From positions 1 through 64,000 of the forward strand of contig CADBEN010000003.1 of the NCBI GenBank assembly GCA_902793685.1: 64,000 nt of DNA. The letters run 5' to 3'. How positions within the stretch are numbered: position 1 is the first letter of the stretch; every line of letters starts with the position of its first letter. The notes under the pieces were generated by a model. That model searched no databases. It was not told the DNA's origin and was given only the letters and a program-made list of their open reading frames with translations. Of this stretch, positions 4,079-54,790 are shown piece after piece. Source of the stretch: an uncultured Lachnospiraceae bacterium. Its GTDB lineage: Bacteria > Bacillota > Clostridia > Lachnospirales > Lachnospiraceae. A program made the position numbers and the translations under genes.

Positions 4079-6739
4079 TCAGAAGCGGTGTCCGCCGCCT
4101 CCGCCGGAGTGGCCGCCGCCACCTCCGCCGCCTCCGCCGCCTCCGCCGGACCAGCCGCCGCCTCCGCCGCCGCTGCTCTTGCTGGGCGGAGAATAGACCT
4201 TGCTGGTGCCGGTAAAGACTGCCATCGGCGCCGCGACAGCCGAAGTGAAGACGATGGAATCCAGGATCTTCTGATCCGAAGGCGTCTTCGCGCTGCCGGT
4301 AAGCCGGAGGATCACATAATTCAGGATCATGGCCAGCGCCAGGGCCAGAAGCGCGTTGCTGGCGTACTTCATGGGCTGGTCGATCTTTCTTCCCTCCAGG
4401 ACGTCCCGGATCTGGGAGTATGCCTCCAGGATACACCGGTGATACTCTCCCCGGGAAGCGTACTTGTACACGTTGTCCGTGATGACATAGGCGTAGCCTT
4501 TGTCGATGTTCCGCAGGTTCTCGCCGTCGCTGTAGATATATATCTCGCGGTTCTCCATGTCGATCATGAACATGGTGCCGCTCTTTGTATTCTTGCCGAA
4601 CAGCGCTTCATAGCAGTCCGCCGCGAAATCATAGGTCGACTGCCCGTCGTCGGAATATCCTGTCGCCGTGCATGCGTTCCCGTACTCCGTCATCGGAAGA
4701 AGCTCTGTGAGAAGCATCTTCTCTTCCTCATCGGTCAGGAGATCCGCCGCGTCCTCCACAGTGACATAGTAACCTGTCGCCGGATTCTGCAAAAGGAGCG
4801 CTGCCCCGCCGGTCCCGCCGGGTCTGGTCTCCGTCCCTGCGGGGAATCCGCTTCCTGCTTCCGCAGATCCTGAAGCGGCCGATGCCGGCGCGTCCGCAGC
4901 CGTTCCCGCCACCGGACGGACCACGCCCAGGACTGCCGTCATCAGAAGCGCGCAGAGGACAATACAGGACATGGCCTGCTTTTCAGCCTTCGCTTTTCCC
5001 GGGCCGCGCTTTTTCTTCTGCGCCTTCTCCGCGCCGTCCCCCCCGTTCTTCGGGTTTCCGTCCTTATCTTTCTCCCGGAACTGGGGCAGAGGACGTGTCA
5101 CCAGACGGTTATACTGTCCGATAAAGCAGCCCAGGGCATAGCAGATGATCGCCAGGACCACAGCCGAAGCACCGTAAAAGATCAGGTCACTCACCGGGTT
5201 TACGACCACGACCACGGCTGCCACCGCCACAGAAACACCAAGCAGGATCGCCGGAAGCTCCGGCTTGCTGTCAGTCTCTCCCCAGCAGGTCACCAGGGTA
5301 AATACAAAGAACAAAAACAGAAATGCAGTGGAGAAGGGGAAGTCCCACTCCTGGATCCAGGCGAATACACAGACGACGATCGAAACAATGAAGGAGAAGC
5401 CTATCGTACAGGCAGCCATGAACAGAACGCCCGCGTCTTTATGCTTGACTTTTTTCGGCGTCCATGCCTTTTCACTCTTCTTTCTTTTCCCTTTCTGCCG
5501 GCTTCCGCTCTCCCGGGCGTTCTCTGCTTCCTCCGCCCAGTCGGCAGTTCCGCGTACAAGTTCTTCCGCCTGACGCTTCTCTGCGGCTTCTCTCTCCGCA
5601 ATAGAGTTCCGGTTCATCCAGCCCTTGTCCAGAATTTTGGCATCCCGGTCCCGGATCTCCTGGGCACTCAGTATATAGATCTCCATCATGATGATGGCTG
5701 CGCCTGCCGCCATCAGAAGCTCCGCGGAGGGATGCAGGGTCAGAAACAGATTCAGAAGAAAGAAGATCGGAACTGCGGTGATCAGGCTGATCAGGAAAAA
5801 GCGTATGTAGCTCACCGGCAGTTCGCAGCTGACCTTGCCTGTCTGACCGTTGACAGCCGCATAGGCGACACGATCCTCGTTCCGGAAGGACAGGAACCAG
5901 ACCGGCAGCATGGCGGCGGAGCTGCTCCCTTTCTTTACCGGAAGCTTCCGCGCCAGATCCGGATCCGTCAGATCCAGATCGTAATCATAACCGTCAAACT
6001 CATGGAATTTCAGGATCTTCTCCGCGACCTCCTTCGCCGCGAAATTCTCCGCATCCTCCTGATACACCGCGCTGTCCACATCGGCCACGGTGGCATAGCC
6101 GCCGGCAAGCCAGGTGGTGGAAAACTCCTTTGCGTCCTTCATCTCGAAGGGGGCAAGCTCCTGGCCGATGGCATCGTCGAAGGTCGAGGAGGCGTCGTAG
6201 GGCAGGTCCGCGAAGCTTGAGTCCACGTCACAGGTAAGATCACTGCGGTCAGTGACGATGTAATCCCCCTCCCGGTGTTCTTTTTTCCCGACAATGGAAA
6301 ACTTGCCCTTGATATCTACATTGTAGAGCCAGTACGGCATGTAGATGGGACGATAGTTGTCCAGATATTCCGGGTCCCGGAACACCGGAGGCGCGTAGAT
6401 GGAGCGGCGCGCCACGGCAGCGTAAGCCTCCCGGCAGTCCTTCTTCGTCTTCCGGAAGGGGATGATCTTTGCCGGGCGGCGGATCCCGGTCAGCCGGGAA
6501 TCCAGGACGTTGGAAGCGCCGCAGTAACTGCAGAATGCTGTCGCGTCCGTGTCAGAGGAATACATCTCCGCCCCGCACTGGGGGCAGGTAAAGACTGTGA
6601 CCTTAAGTTCAGACTCCTCGGCGCGGCTGGCGTACATCTTTGATTCCGGATCAAAACGGCCCCGGCAGGAATTGCAGCAGAGCTTCTGTTCTTCAATGCT
6701 GAATTTCAGGTCATCTCCGCAGTTCGGACAGATATACAT
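4079..6739 (-). CDS. Zinc-ribbon / membrane / TPM-domain fusion protein with Gly-rich tail
   Basis: An 886-residue mosaic. Two N-terminal zinc ribbons (CPNC...CNSC at about 4-25; CPQC...CSYC at about 52-74) are followed by a soluble region (about 80-310). Next come two membrane spans (about 318-360), a charged linker, more membrane spans (about 440-545) and a basic segment. Another span at about 612-636 precedes a TPM (YgcG/Psb32-like) domain at about 660-790, recognisable by LLTDEEEK...L and MFMIDMENREIYI. A final span (about 795-812) leads to a C-terminal tail of almost pure glycine ending HRF. TPM domains sit in membrane proteins linked to photosystem repair or unknown envelope roles. Here the fusion to zinc ribbons suggests an envelope-stress or assembly role, but function is unknown. 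It forms its own unit, downstream of a terminator. Confidence 0.85.
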   Translation of the reverse strand: MYICPNCGDDLKFSIEEQKLCCNSCRGRFDPESKMYASRAEESELKVTVFTCPQCGAEMYSSDTDATAFCSYCGASNVLDSRLTGIRRPAKIIPFRKTKKDCREAYAAVARRSIYAPPVFRDPEYLDNYRPIYMPYWLYNVDIKGKFSIVGKKEHREGDYIVTDRSDLTCDVDSSFADLPYDASSTFDDAIGQELAPFEMKDAKEFSTTWLAGGYATVADVDSAVYQEDAENFAAKEVAEKILKFHEFDGYDYDLDLTDPDLARKLPVKKGSSSAAMLPVWFLSFRNEDRVAYAAVNGQTGKVSCELPVSYIRFFLISLITAVPIFFLLNLFLTLHPSAELLMAAGAAIIMMEIYILSAQEIRDRDAKILDKGWMNRNSIAEREAAEKRQAEELVRGTADWAEEAENARESGSRQKGKRKKSEKAWTPKKVKHKDAGVLFMAACTIGFSFIVSIVVCVFAWIQEWDFPFSTAFLFLFFVFTLVTCWGETDSKPELPAILLGVSVAVAAVVVVVNPVSDLIFYGASAVVLAIICYALGCFIGQYNRLVTRPLPQFREKDKDGNPKNGGDGAEKAQKKKRGPGKAKAEKQAMSCIVLCALLMTAVLGVVRPVAGTAADAPASAASGSAEAGSGFPAGTETRPGGTGGAALLLQNPATGYYVTVEDAADLLTDEEEKMLLTELLPMTEYGNACTATGYSDDGQSTYDFAADCYEALFGKNTKSGTMFMIDMENREIYIYSDGENLRNIDKGYAYVITDNVYKYASRGEYHRCILEAYSQIRDVLEGRKIDQPMKYASNALLALALAMILNYVILRLTGSAKTPSDQKILDSIVFTSAVAAPMAVFTGTSKVYSPPSKSSGGGGGGWSGGGGGGGGGGGGHSGGGGGHRF

Positions 6740-6758
6740 GCTTTCCTCCCTTAATCAG

Positions 6759-6792
6759 AAAAACCGCGGAAAACGGGCTGGGCTTTCCGCGG
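6759..6792 (-). terminator. Intrinsic terminator after the DUF805 gene
   Basis: On the minus strand CCGCGGAAA (6792-6784) pairs with TTTCCGCGG (6772-6764) and runs into TTTTT. It closes the DUF805 transcript before the TPM gene starts at 6739. Confidence 0.85.
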
Positions 6793-6810
6793 TGTCCTCC
6801 GCAGCAGAAA

Positions 6811-7176
6811 TCAAATAGTCGTGTTTCCGTAGATCCCCTTCGGGTTCGGACCGTACTGGTTGTCTCCGGGCTCGCTGTCTCTGATACACCAGACCAGCAG
6901 GATGATCCATCCGATGACCGGGACAAAGTGCAGAAAGATCCACCATCCGCTCTTTCCGATGTCATGCAGCCTGCGGACTCCCGCCGAGAGCGTCGCAAGA
7001 CTCAGCGCGATGGAGACCACTGTTCCGATCCCGTTGTGCGGTCCCAGCAGACGATTGATCAACGCGGACACAATGCCCACAAACAGGGCAAAATACCAGT
7101 ACTCGCTGCGTCTGGCGCGTCCTTCGAAGGTCATGATCTTCGCGATGCAGACCTGTACAGCTTCCGTAAAACTCAT
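6811..7176 (-). CDS. DUF805 small membrane protein
   Basis: A 121-residue protein with about four membrane spans. Family signs are the N-terminal FEGRARRSEYWYF, the central VRRLHDIGKSGWW and a short C-terminal tail after the last span (DNQYGPNPKG). DUF805 proteins are inner-membrane proteins of unknown function in many bacteria; no catalytic residues are known. The start follows AGGAGG. It is transcribed alone: a terminator follows it and a 109-bp gap separates it from the lipoprotein gene downstream of its start. Confidence 0.9.
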   Translation of the reverse strand: MSFTEAVQVCIAKIMTFEGRARRSEYWYFALFVGIVSALINRLLGPHNGIGTVVSIALSLATLSAGVRRLHDIGKSGWWIFLHFVPVIGWIILLVWCIRDSEPGDNQYGPNPKGIYGNTTI

Positions 7177-7285
7177 TGCAGTTCCTCCTAAAGCAGTATT
7201 CTTTTAACAATATAGCGCTTTTTCGATGAAAATTCCATCCCCGCATAAGGAACTGCCTTGATACACAGAAGCAGCTGCCCGGTGA

Positions 7286-51849: not shown

Positions 51850-54615
51850 TTGAAACGGCTTACCATCGGTATTCTCGCCCATGTCGACGCGGGAAAGACC
51901 ACGCTCTCCGAGGCGCTGCTCTGCGAGACCGGCGTCCTCCGCCAGGCAGGGCGGGTCGACGCGGGCAATACCTTCCTTGACACCGACGAACAGGAGCGGC
52001 AGCGCGGCATCACCATCTTCTCCAAGCAGGCCGTGTTCCGCACGGAGGACACTGAATTCACCCTGCTGGACACCCCTGGACATGTGGACTTCTCCGCGGA
52101 GACCGAGCGCACGCTCCAGGTGCTGGACGCGGCAGTCCTCGTGGTCAGCGCGCCGGACGGCGTGCAGAGCCACACCGTCACTCTCTGGCGGCTCCTCCAG
52201 ACCTACCGGATCCCGGTCTTCCTCTTCATCAACAAGATGGACCAGATCGATGTCCTGCAGAAGCCTGCAGTCCGCGCCCGGGTCCTGAACCAGCTGAACG
52301 CCATGTTCCGCGGCGGCTTCTTTGACTTCGGAAAAAGCCTCGACACGCCGGAGATCCAGGAGGAGCTCTCACTGCTGGACGAGGCTTTGATGGAGCGCTA
52401 TCTGGAGGACGGAACGCCCGTGGGCGAGGAGGACCTCCGCCGGCTGATCGGCGCCCGGAAGCTTTTCCCCTGCTGGTTCGGATACGCGCGGGGGCTGAAC
52501 GGCCGGACCGAAGGAGTCAGAGCGCTGCTCTCCGGCCTCGCCCGCTTCGCGCCGGTGCCGGATTATCCGGAGGACTTCGGTGCCCGGATCTTCAAGATCA
52601 CCAGGGACGAACAGGGCGCCCGCCTGACCTGGATGAAGATCACCGGCGGTACCCTCCGCGCGAAGATGGTGATCCCGGAGCTCGGTGAGAAGGCGGACCA
52701 GCTCCGCCACTACAACGGAAAGGAGTTCACGCCGCTGCAGGAAGCGCCTGCCGGCACTGTCGTCGCGGTCACCGGCCTCACAAAGACCCGCGCCGGGGAA
52801 GGTCTCGGCACGGAACAGGCCTCCCGCATGCCCCTGCTCTCCCCCGTACTCCGCTACCGCATCCTGCTTCCGGACGGGGTCGATGCCGCCGCCATGCTGC
52901 CGAAGCTCCGGAGTCTCGAGGAGGAGGAGCCCGAGCTTCACATTCTCTGGGATGAGGAGTCCAAAGAGATCCGGGTGCAGCTGATGGGGGAGGTGCAGAC
53001 CGAGATCCTGAAGAATCTGGTGGCAAAACGTTTCGACGTGGAGATCGGTTTTGACCGCGGAAGCATCTCCTACCGCGAGACCATCACCGACACCGTGGAG
53101 GGCGTCGGCCACTTTGAACCCCTGCGCCACTACGCGGAGGTCCACCTGATCCTCTCTCCCGGCGAACCGGGCAGCGGACTGGTCTTCGAGAGCAAGGTCT
53201 CCTCCGACCGTCTTGCCACCAACTGGCAGCGGCTGATCCTCACTCATCTGGAGGAGAAGGAGCACCTGGGAGTGCTCACCGGAGCGCCTGTCACCGACAT
53301 GAAGATCACGGTGGCCGACGGGAAGGCCCATCTCAAGCACACGGAAGGCGGCGATTTCCGCCAGGCAACCTACCGGGCGGTCCGGAACGGTCTCATGTAC
53401 GCCAGTTCTATCCTTCTGGAGCCCTGGTACGAGTTCACGCTGGAGGTGCCCCAGTCCTGCACAGGACGGGCCCTCACCGACCTCGACCGCATGTCGGCGG
53501 AGTTCACTCTGGACGCAGGCCCCGCCGCTGAGGGCGAGGCTGTGATCCGCGGCAAAGTCCCGGTGTCCGAAGCCGTCAACTACATGGAGGAGGTCCGCGC
53601 CTACACCAAGGGAACCGGCCGCCTTTCCCTCCGTTTCTCCGGCTACTTCCCCTGTCACGACCAGGAGCGGGTCATCGAGGAAAGCGGCTATGATCCGGAG
53701 CTGGATCTCCGGAATTCCCCGGACTCCGTCTTCTGCTCCCACGGCGCAGGCCAGACCATCCCCTGGTACGACGTCCGCCAGTACATGCATCTCCCGGCGG
53801 TACTTTCCTTCGGCGCGGATTCTGACGGCGGAGCGGATACTGACGGCGAGGCTGCGGCAGAGCGGGCCCGCAGGGCAGGCTCCGGAAAGGATGAGATCTT
53901 CCTTTCCACGGAAGAGATCGACGCCATCATCAGCCGCACCTTTTTCGCGAACCGGAGAAAGGAAGACCGCCGGAGGCTCTGGGGCCGGCGGCGGGCAGCG
54001 AAGGAAAAAGTGGACTGGTCCGGGGCTGCTTCCGGGGCCGGCACAAGGTCCGGAGGAAAGAAGGATGCCGGGGAGAAAAAGCCCCGCCGGGAATTCCTTC
54101 TGGTGGACGGCTACAACATGATCTTCGCGTGGGAGGAGCTGAACGCCCTGGCGAAGCTGAACATAGACAGCGCAAGGCTCGAACTTCAGGATATCCTGTC
54201 CAACTACCAGGGTTTCCGGGGCTGCGAGGTGATCATCGTGTACGATGCCTACCGGGTCGCAGGCCATCAGACCGAGATCCTGAACTGGCAGAACATCCAT
54301 ATCGTCTTCACGAAGGAAGCCCAGACTGCAGACAGCTATATCGAGCAGTTCTCAATGGAGCATGCGAAGACCGACCAGGTCATCGTCGCCACCTCCGACG
54401 GACTGGAGCAGATCATCGTCCAGACCTCTGGCAGCGAACTGCTCTCTGCCCGCGAGCTCCGGGATGAAGTGATCCGGACTGCCCGTCAGGCGGACGGACC
54501 GCAGAGCGCAGAGCCCGCTCCCCGGAACCGCCCCATGGAGGCGCAGCTGAAGGAGATCCGGGAACAACTGAAGGCAGACGGTGCCTCGCCCGAAGAGAAA
54601 CAGGATAACGCATGA
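51850..54615 (+). CDS. TetM-like ribosomal-protection GTPase fused to a Rae1/YacP-type NYN RNase
   Basis: A 921-residue fusion. Residues 1 to about 650 form an EF-G/TetM-type GTPase: G1 AHVDAGKTT (10-18), RGIT (about 52-55), DTPGHVDF (about 74-81), NKMD (about 128-131), then EF-G-like domains with EGGDFRQATYRAVRNGLM. A charged linker (about 655-740) leads to an NYN domain (about 745-880). There LLVDGYNMI, IIVYDAY, FTKEAQTADSYIEQ and VATSDGLEQ match Bacillus YacP (Rae1), a nuclease that cuts mRNA in the ribosomal A site; the acidic catalytic residues are kept. The start is a TTG, 7 nt after AAAGAGG, giving the expected MKRLTIGILAH. Tetracycline resistance cannot be assumed. A hairpin terminator follows. 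Confidence 0.9.
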   Translation: MKRLTIGILAHVDAGKTTLSEALLCETGVLRQAGRVDAGNTFLDTDEQERQRGITIFSKQAVFRTEDTEFTLLDTPGHVDFSAETERTLQVLDAAVLVVSAPDGVQSHTVTLWRLLQTYRIPVFLFINKMDQIDVLQKPAVRARVLNQLNAMFRGGFFDFGKSLDTPEIQEELSLLDEALMERYLEDGTPVGEEDLRRLIGARKLFPCWFGYARGLNGRTEGVRALLSGLARFAPVPDYPEDFGARIFKITRDEQGARLTWMKITGGTLRAKMVIPELGEKADQLRHYNGKEFTPLQEAPAGTVVAVTGLTKTRAGEGLGTEQASRMPLLSPVLRYRILLPDGVDAAAMLPKLRSLEEEEPELHILWDEESKEIRVQLMGEVQTEILKNLVAKRFDVEIGFDRGSISYRETITDTVEGVGHFEPLRHYAEVHLILSPGEPGSGLVFESKVSSDRLATNWQRLILTHLEEKEHLGVLTGAPVTDMKITVADGKAHLKHTEGGDFRQATYRAVRNGLMYASSILLEPWYEFTLEVPQSCTGRALTDLDRMSAEFTLDAGPAAEGEAVIRGKVPVSEAVNYMEEVRAYTKGTGRLSLRFSGYFPCHDQERVIEESGYDPELDLRNSPDSVFCSHGAGQTIPWYDVRQYMHLPAVLSFGADSDGGADTDGEAAAERARRAGSGKDEIFLSTEEIDAIISRTFFANRRKEDRRRLWGRRRAAKEKVDWSGAASGAGTRSGGKKDAGEKKPRREFLLVDGYNMIFAWEELNALAKLNIDSARLELQDILSNYQGFRGCEVIIVYDAYRVAGHQTEILNWQNIHIVFTKEAQTADSYIEQFSMEHAKTDQVIVATSDGLEQIIVQTSGSELLSARELRDEVIRTARQADGPQSAEPAPRNRPMEAQLKEIREQLKADGASPEEKQDNA

Positions 54616-54623
54616 CAGAAACA

Positions 54624-54665
54624 GGCCGCCGGCATCATCTGCCGACGGCCTCAAATGTTTTTGCC
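54624..54665 (+). terminator. Terminator of the GTPase-RNase gene
   Basis: GGCCG-c-CGGCA pairs with TGCCG-a-CGGCC, followed by TCAAATGTTTTT. Confidence 0.82.
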
Positions 54666-54790
54666 CTTACCATTCGTATCCGGACAGCAAGGCATCGGCC
54701 TCATACGGATGGTAATGCTTGTGTTTTGCCCTTACCATTCGTATCCGGGCAGCAAGGCCCAAGCAAAGCCCATCCTTTTACGAATGGAGT
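54659..54790 (-). repeat. Two hairpin repeats of the family seen at 241-560
   Basis: Read on the minus strand, two ~64-bp units carry GGATACGAATGGTAAGGGCAAAA-type ends and CCATCCGTATGAGG or an equivalent start. In one unit ACCATTCGTAT (54669-54679) pairs with ATACGGATGGT (54703-54713). In the other CCATTCGTA (54735-54743) pairs with TACGAATGG (near 54779-54787). As at the left locus, the array begins just after a GAGAACCAA/TTGGTTCTC terminator. Confidence 0.8.

Follow-up and report, generated by a model that had tools for sequence, protein, structure and literature searches.

A translation-factor-like GTPase fused to a Rae1/YacP-type nuclease in Clostridia, with a possible role in place of Rae1

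The fused protein and its described relatives

In Bacillus subtilis, Rae1 (YacP) is described as an endoribonuclease that acts on mRNA in the ribosomal A site, and an efp mutant is suppressed, in a non-additive manner, when either rae1 or its neighbor yacO, an rlmB homolog, is disrupted, one such suppressor being R166P in Rae1 (PMC6613710, in its passages on this locus). A Rae1 substrate, S1025, is named in PMC11780869. Proteins in which a YacP-like NYN RNase is joined to a Tet/EF-G-like GTPase have been in print since Atkinson 2015, whose passages on these Tet-NYN fusions of Clostridiales cover ten species and put forward the idea of resistance (PMC4342817). The subject of the present work is a gene of this architecture in an uncultured Lachnospiraceae bacterium, located on the first 64,000 nucleotides of contig CADBEN010000003.1 (assembly GCA_902793685.1), a stretch referred to below as the window. 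What is added to those passages of PMC4342817 is the presence of the fusion in 99 of 293 genomes of the class, a separate GTPase clade, and the replacement of stand-alone yacP, including a gene fossil. An earlier note on this DNA had known of no experimental description of the arrangement, and none was found, nor was any other paper on the fusion or any functional work on it, in a literature search whose scope did not extend to the main Rae1 paper (Leroy 2017); the architecture itself, however, was already published (PMC4342817).

The gene consists of a single open reading frame, whose TTG start agrees with the N-terminal alignment to relatives and is preceded at 7 nucleotides by GAGG (Table 1). 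Pfam recognizes domains G, II, III, IV and V of the EF-G type, in this order, followed by NYN_YacP, whose score of 154.4 bits lies above the cut-off of 24.6. An AlphaFold model (12 sequences; mean predicted local distance difference test, pLDDT, 77.6; predicted template modeling score, pTM, 0.55) is folded over residues 1-645, displays a low-confidence linker over approximately residues 654-743, and ends in a folded NYN domain; matches to the full model spanned only residues 1-641, for which reason a separate model of the NYN domain was made and compared. This domain matches Bacillus Rae1 in sequence (PDB 5mq9/5mq8, 4.2e-20), and its predicted fold finds chain 5mq9_B in Foldseek at 4.3e-11, as compared to 1.4e-2 for the best match outside Rae1, with a root mean square deviation of 1.8 to 5mq9_A across 136 columns. 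Alignment with 5mq9 places the acidic active-site pattern of Rae1 within it, and among 90 homologous rows D753, D799 and D828 are kept in all, and D850 in 89, the exception being a gap at a contig end. Fused linkers are variable and predicted to be disordered, with a median length of 86.5 residues (range 69-137, n=34); 23 of the 34 nevertheless carry the motif E[LIVM]xxI[FIVYM]x[RK]T (residues 689-697 of the window protein), which may be a docking helix. The earlier note had described one 921-codon frame that joins a complete EF-G/Tet-type GTPase to a C-terminal YacP/Rae1-type nuclease, and this description is borne out; of the contrary findings that it had considered, namely loss of the catalytic acids, a short linker and a C-terminal domain unrelated to YacP, none was encountered.

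With B. subtilis Rae1 the fused protein shares the NYN domain, its acidic residues and its fold, but Rae1 is a stand-alone protein, co-transcribed with yacO (PMC6613710, same passages), and carries the C-terminal tail EKWRR, within which the suppressor residue R166 falls and which the window protein does not possess. Tet(M) and Tet(O) share the five-domain EF-G-like GTPase, a domain-IV loop of equal length that includes DFR and, within the aligned range, the C-terminal extension; in the fused protein, in contrast, the drug-site loop YSPVSTPADFR is replaced, domain IV carries two His-rich loops, and a nuclease is added. EF-G also differs in its tip loops, and the score of the fused protein with the EF-G family TIGR00484 (279.2) lies below the NCBIfam cut-off of 659.4. 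SmrB and MutS2, ribosome-targeted factors of stalled-ribosome quality control, provide a parallel in mode of action only; SmrB, which is recruited by collisions, cleaves the mRNA, and B. subtilis MutS2 is reported to split ribosomes without mRNA cleavage. The domains of both are unrelated to those of the fused protein.

Among solved structures, Tet(O) (4v6v, 2.3e-66) and EF-G rank first as relatives of the GTPase part by sequence and Tet(M) ranks lower, and the predicted fold also places it beside EF-G and Tet(M)/Tet(O); its score with the NCBIfam family tet_protect, however, is 382.3, below the cut-off of 775. The loops GHFEPLRHYAEV and HxKHTxGGDFR, located at the sites of the GQYG and YHDVDSS loops of EF-G, mark 61 fused and 29 unfused GTPase rows: H421, E423, H427, T498 and D502 are present in 90 of 90, H497 in 89, and H494, like K496, in 86; the full motif is not matched by G070 or by a few of the fused rows. 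None of eight outgroup rows displays the clade motif, while four have YSPVSTPADFR, as does Tet(O) 4v6v. Its sequence assigns the GTPase part to a separate clade, marked by a particular domain-IV tip that unfused members have as well; most of the latter end shortly past the shared C-terminal extension.

Another group of Tet/EF-G-like GTPases (L226, L227 and L228, from genomes G226, G272 and G289) carries a tip of the HxxHxxPxDF type, and belongs neither to the Tet(O) type nor to the clade of the fused protein.

Distribution of the fusion and of stand-alone yacP

The spread of the fusion was surveyed in 293 evenly drawn genomes of the window's class, at least 90% complete and often fragmented, which were searched for the GTPase and subsequently for the NYN family; "fused" denotes a GTPase frame of at least 780 residues and NYN_YacP in the same genome, the shared frame not being confirmed for every case. 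By this definition 99 genomes are fused and four are broken or have the parts at contig edges, while 19 carry an unfused GTPase of the clade (13 with and six without a YacP match), 76 YacP only (one of these, G353, scoring under the cut-off) and 95 neither. NYN_YacP was also found in 84 of 98 relatives and, within the window's family, in 54 of 59 other genomes, 48 of the 54 in long frames. A sample of the phylum, searched for the GTPase clade only (E <= 1e-110), yielded it in 21 of 299 genomes, with 18 long frames and three short ones, and a further locus scan of genome contigs gave at least 80 loci. Because many other genomes carry the same arrangement, the fused gene is not an assembly artefact of the window; its product is common and, in the window's family, near-core.

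A tree of 98 GTPase rows gathers the 61 fused rows on one branch (Shimodaira-Hasegawa-like approximate likelihood ratio, SH-aLRT, 99), together with three rows that have no in-frame NYN domain: G048, where the halves are adjacent, L118 and L122. Partial, split or unextracted rows were omitted from it (L102, L103, L104, L116, L126, L128, L129, L206, L213 and G096). Since the fused rows share this branch, one fusion event followed by later losses is the simplest reading of the sequences. Trees of the NYN domain are poorly resolved. With labels corrected, one fused clade is not rejected (approximately unbiased test, p-AU 0.41), nine of 90 rows having been removed because they were truncated, broken or on long branches (G049, L117, L212, G016, L210, G096, L222, L120 and G055). 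Earlier runs, which gave p-AU 0.054 (59 rows labeled fused, 31 other) and 0.0004 (86 rows) against a single clade, included five rows wrongly labeled as stand-alone, of which G050 and G095 are fused and G048, G096 and L209 are broken or split.

Splits in the 293-genome sample comprise G328 and G141, with the halves on the same contig but in two frames, and G267 and G251, with the halves on different contigs; G048 and G096 are split among the relatives. In L096/L075 (G048) and L209 (G328) the two parts occupy adjacent or overlapping frames, which are natural splits or sequencing frameshifts. L118 (Collinsella, 4693-6708) and L122 (Bifidobacterium avesanii, 5013-7223) encode GTPases without the NYN domain, probably as a result of horizontal transfer and subsequent loss of the nuclease, as judged from their position in the tree.

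Stand-alone yacP adjoins rlmB and/or sigH in 24 of 25 loci (G048, G094 and G096 being left out), and a second NYN_YacP over the cut-off occurs in one of the 99 fused genomes (G376), versus NYN_YacP in 88 of the 190 others; three more fused genomes (G216, G269 and G302) have second matches under the cut-off. The earlier note had asked whether fused genomes lack stand-alone yacP, and by these counts they very seldom retain it. A search for SigH in 30 genomes, 26 of them fused, gave the locus in 17, with rlmB beside sigH in 12 of these; ten of the 12 junctions have no yacP, G376 retains it, and G079 holds a yacP fossil in which approximately 30 codons from the start of the gene and 15 from its end are left, the middle being gone. 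A search for RlmB in 19 genomes added the empty junctions of G055, G049 and G092. The resulting 13 junctions have gaps of -1 to 244 bp, and are therefore too short to hold a yacP of approximately 510 bp. In the window genome, cysS-mrnC-rlmB is present and no yacP was found beside rlmB; the fused gene lies outside the rlmB-yacP-sigH slot, between unrelated genes. Within genus g118, the stand-alone yacP is the only form in G148, where it occupies the canonical slot, and the fusion is the only form in G119, G216, G269, G302 and G346. A functional replacement would be expected to leave such traces, namely a genome with both genes, a gene fossil, junctions without yacP and, within a single genus, one form or the other, and the comparison thus suggests that the fusion has functionally replaced stand-alone yacP/Rae1.

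A further difference concerns the C-terminus. The window protein ends without the EKxRR-type tail of stand-alone Rae1, and this motif, which was chosen after inspection of the data, is found in 24 of 26 stand-alone rows versus 17 of 64 rows that are fused or split. Among these 64, one is interrupted by a contig end, and 22 stop within 23 residues of where the tail starts. Since most fused rows do not have the motif, ribosome targeting would now be carried out by the GTPase.

Proposed role and its alternatives

The evidence favors a housekeeping role for the fused protein, given its own GTPase clade and tip, the fusion in a large part of the sampled class, the replacement of yacP, and the absence of the Rae1 tail from most fused rows. 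It is judged rather probable that the GTPase targets the tethered Rae1/YacP nuclease to ribosomes for mRNA cleavage of the Rae1 type, as a housekeeping activity in Rae1's place. Both activities are probably kept, as the acids of the NYN domain and the GTPase histidine (H78 in DTPGH) are invariant in the compared rows, save for the gap at D850. We infer GTPase-dependent targeting, as well as its trigger, substrate and order of steps. The GTP form would dock on a paused or A-site-accessible 70S ribosome, with the tip of domain IV probing the decoding center, as expected by homology; GTP hydrolysis would then shift or free domain IV, vacating the A site; and the NYN domain, on its flexible linker of approximately 70-137 residues, would enter the A site and cut the mRNA in the manner of Rae1, so that a truncated transcript would be passed on to ribosome rescue.

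Several observations weigh against this reading. The A site would be contested between domain IV and Rae1, which makes simultaneous binding unlikely. A match to the tail motif, which was defined post hoc, is retained in 17 of 64 fused rows; a YacP match is missing from six of the 19 genomes that carry an unfused GTPase, which evidently serves some purpose there without the nuclease; and the association between unfused GTPase and YacP is weak in the 190 non-fused genomes (13 with both, six with the GTPase only, 76 with YacP only, 95 with neither; p 0.055 in a Fisher test that disregards relatedness). The actinobacterial L118 and L122 nest in the fused clade without an NYN domain, neither part had a match in genome G006, which belongs to the same genus as the window genome, and the neighborhoods of 61 fused loci, as seen with crude calling of open reading frames, have no recurrent translation gene. 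The earlier note had proposed that the GTPase delivers the nuclease to stalled or drug-bound ribosomes; with both parts expected in the A site, this proposal is amended to sequential action, probably GTPase first and nuclease second.

The long, flexible linker, the six genomes without a YacP match and the loss of the NYN domain in two Actinobacteria would also be expected if the two activities shared a polypeptide for co-expression only, the nuclease acting as free Rae1 and the GTPase separately, for example in back-translocation or A-site clearing; this is nonetheless unlikely, in view of the absence of the Rae1 tail motif from most fused rows and the small number of splits. Slightly less probable still is ribosomal protection against tetracycline or another A-site drug coupled to an RNase step, as in Atkinson 2015, where such fusions are filed under Tet (PMC4342817, in the passages concerned). 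The rank of Tet(O), EF-G and Tet(M) among the solved relatives agrees with that idea, but the tip reads KHTEGGDFR rather than YSPVSTPADFR, the tet_protect cut-off is not reached, the distribution in the window's family is near-core, and the fused genomes G002 and G034 hold a separate Tet(O/W)-type gene elsewhere; on the basis of tip loop, cut-off and distribution the resistance reading is rated low, and the terms "ribosomal-protection" and "drug-bound" of the earlier note are not upheld.

An older proposal for NYN/YacP proteins, maturation of rRNA or tRNA (Anantharaman and Aravind 2006, as cited in PMC4342817), would make the fused protein a maturation RNase brought to ribosomes or pre-ribosomes, and stand-alone yacP does often adjoin rlmB, with mrnC nearby, both of which are rRNA genes. 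This is improbable, as Rae1 is described as an A-site mRNA endoribonuclease (PMC6613710, in part) and an EF-G-type carrier would imply mature 70S ribosomes. NYN/PIN nucleases generally serve as stress or anti-phage effectors, and one that halts translation by cutting mRNA or tRNA on ribosomes could be imagined here; it is considered most improbable, since PADLOC gave a single weak match (ThsB1, E 0.0054), on account of which the defence reading was set aside, a Pfam scan of the seven flanking proteins found no toxin-antitoxin or defence family, and the gene is near-core.

The targeting of a tethered nuclease by the GTPase also has a more specific form, put forward tentatively as quite possible, in which the fused protein would be a GTP-gated mRNA cutter, whose His-rich tip reads the state of the decoding center, clears the A site and hands over to the tethered nuclease. 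In a bolder version, the His-rich tip could itself be catalytic or bind metal. If the GTP-gated form is true, it would have replaced Rae1 in roughly one third of the class as sampled. More generally, targeting by the GTPase, if true, would tie the destruction of mRNA on ribosomes directly to a GTPase of the translation-factor type, provide Rae1 research with a naturally fused protein in support of A-site delivery, and advise caution in naming fused genes as tetracycline resistance by similarity. To our knowledge no earlier translational GTPase has been shown to carry its own mRNase, and the fused protein would be the first. With genomes that hold both genes, a fossil or an empty slot, nature offers a replacement series by which functional equivalence to Rae1 can be tested in one laboratory strain, of Bacillus subtilis.

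The locus in the window

Table 1. Coordinates of the fused gene and its parts in the window (aa, amino acid residues of the fused protein)
Feature	Position	Strand	Remarks
Whole fused gene	51850..54615	+	921 codons and TGA stop; TTG start
G domain (GTP_EFTU), aa 3-146	51856..52287	+	Pfam 2.7e-47; motifs AHVDAGKTT, DTPGH(78)VDF, NKMD
EF-G domain II (EF-G_D2), aa 243-319	52576..52806	+	Pfam
EF-G domain III (EFG_III), aa 332-399	52843..53046	+	Pfam
EF-G domain IV (EFG_IV), aa 404-518	53059..53403	+	Pfam
Clade-specific domain-IV loop GHFEPLRHYAEV, aa 420-431	53107..53142	+	H427 aligns with Q of the EF-G GQYG loop
Clade-specific domain-IV tip HLKHTEGGDFR, aa 494-504	53329..53361	+	H494 aligns with H of the EF-G YHDVDSS loop
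EF-G domain V (EFG_C), aa 522-605	53413..53664	+	Pfam
GTPase C-terminal extension SVFCxHGxGxxxxWxxVxxYMH, aa 606-647	53665..53790	+	common to unfused relatives
Linker, approximately 100 aa	53791..54090	+	mostly predicted disordered; carries EIDAIISRT; from model and linker comparison
NYN_YacP (Rae1-like) nuclease, aa 750-904	54097..54561	+	Pfam 3.5e-45; acids D753, D799, D828, D850

The fused gene is flanked in the window by sugar-nucleotide, M20 peptidase and xanthine-dehydrogenase-type genes. Across the 61 fused loci, widely shared neighbors are generic, including an ABC-transporter-like ATPase cluster in 13 and a MATE-like cluster in six (both named by eye), and other recurrent neighbors are mainly confined to the window's own genus; a function based on an operon was rejected, as only generic families are shared around the fused loci. 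A promoter scan detected no promoter for the gene. Right behind the stop codon, positions 54623-54651 form a hairpin of 12 pairs, nine of them G-C, which the scan lists as terminator-like on the minus strand. Further 3', a direct repeat of 35 nucleotides lies in the intergenic region at 54659-54693 and 54724-54758 (97% identical, 65 nucleotides from start to start), and a third copy of its 20-base core occurs at positions 500-519 of the window, on the minus strand, with three mismatches.
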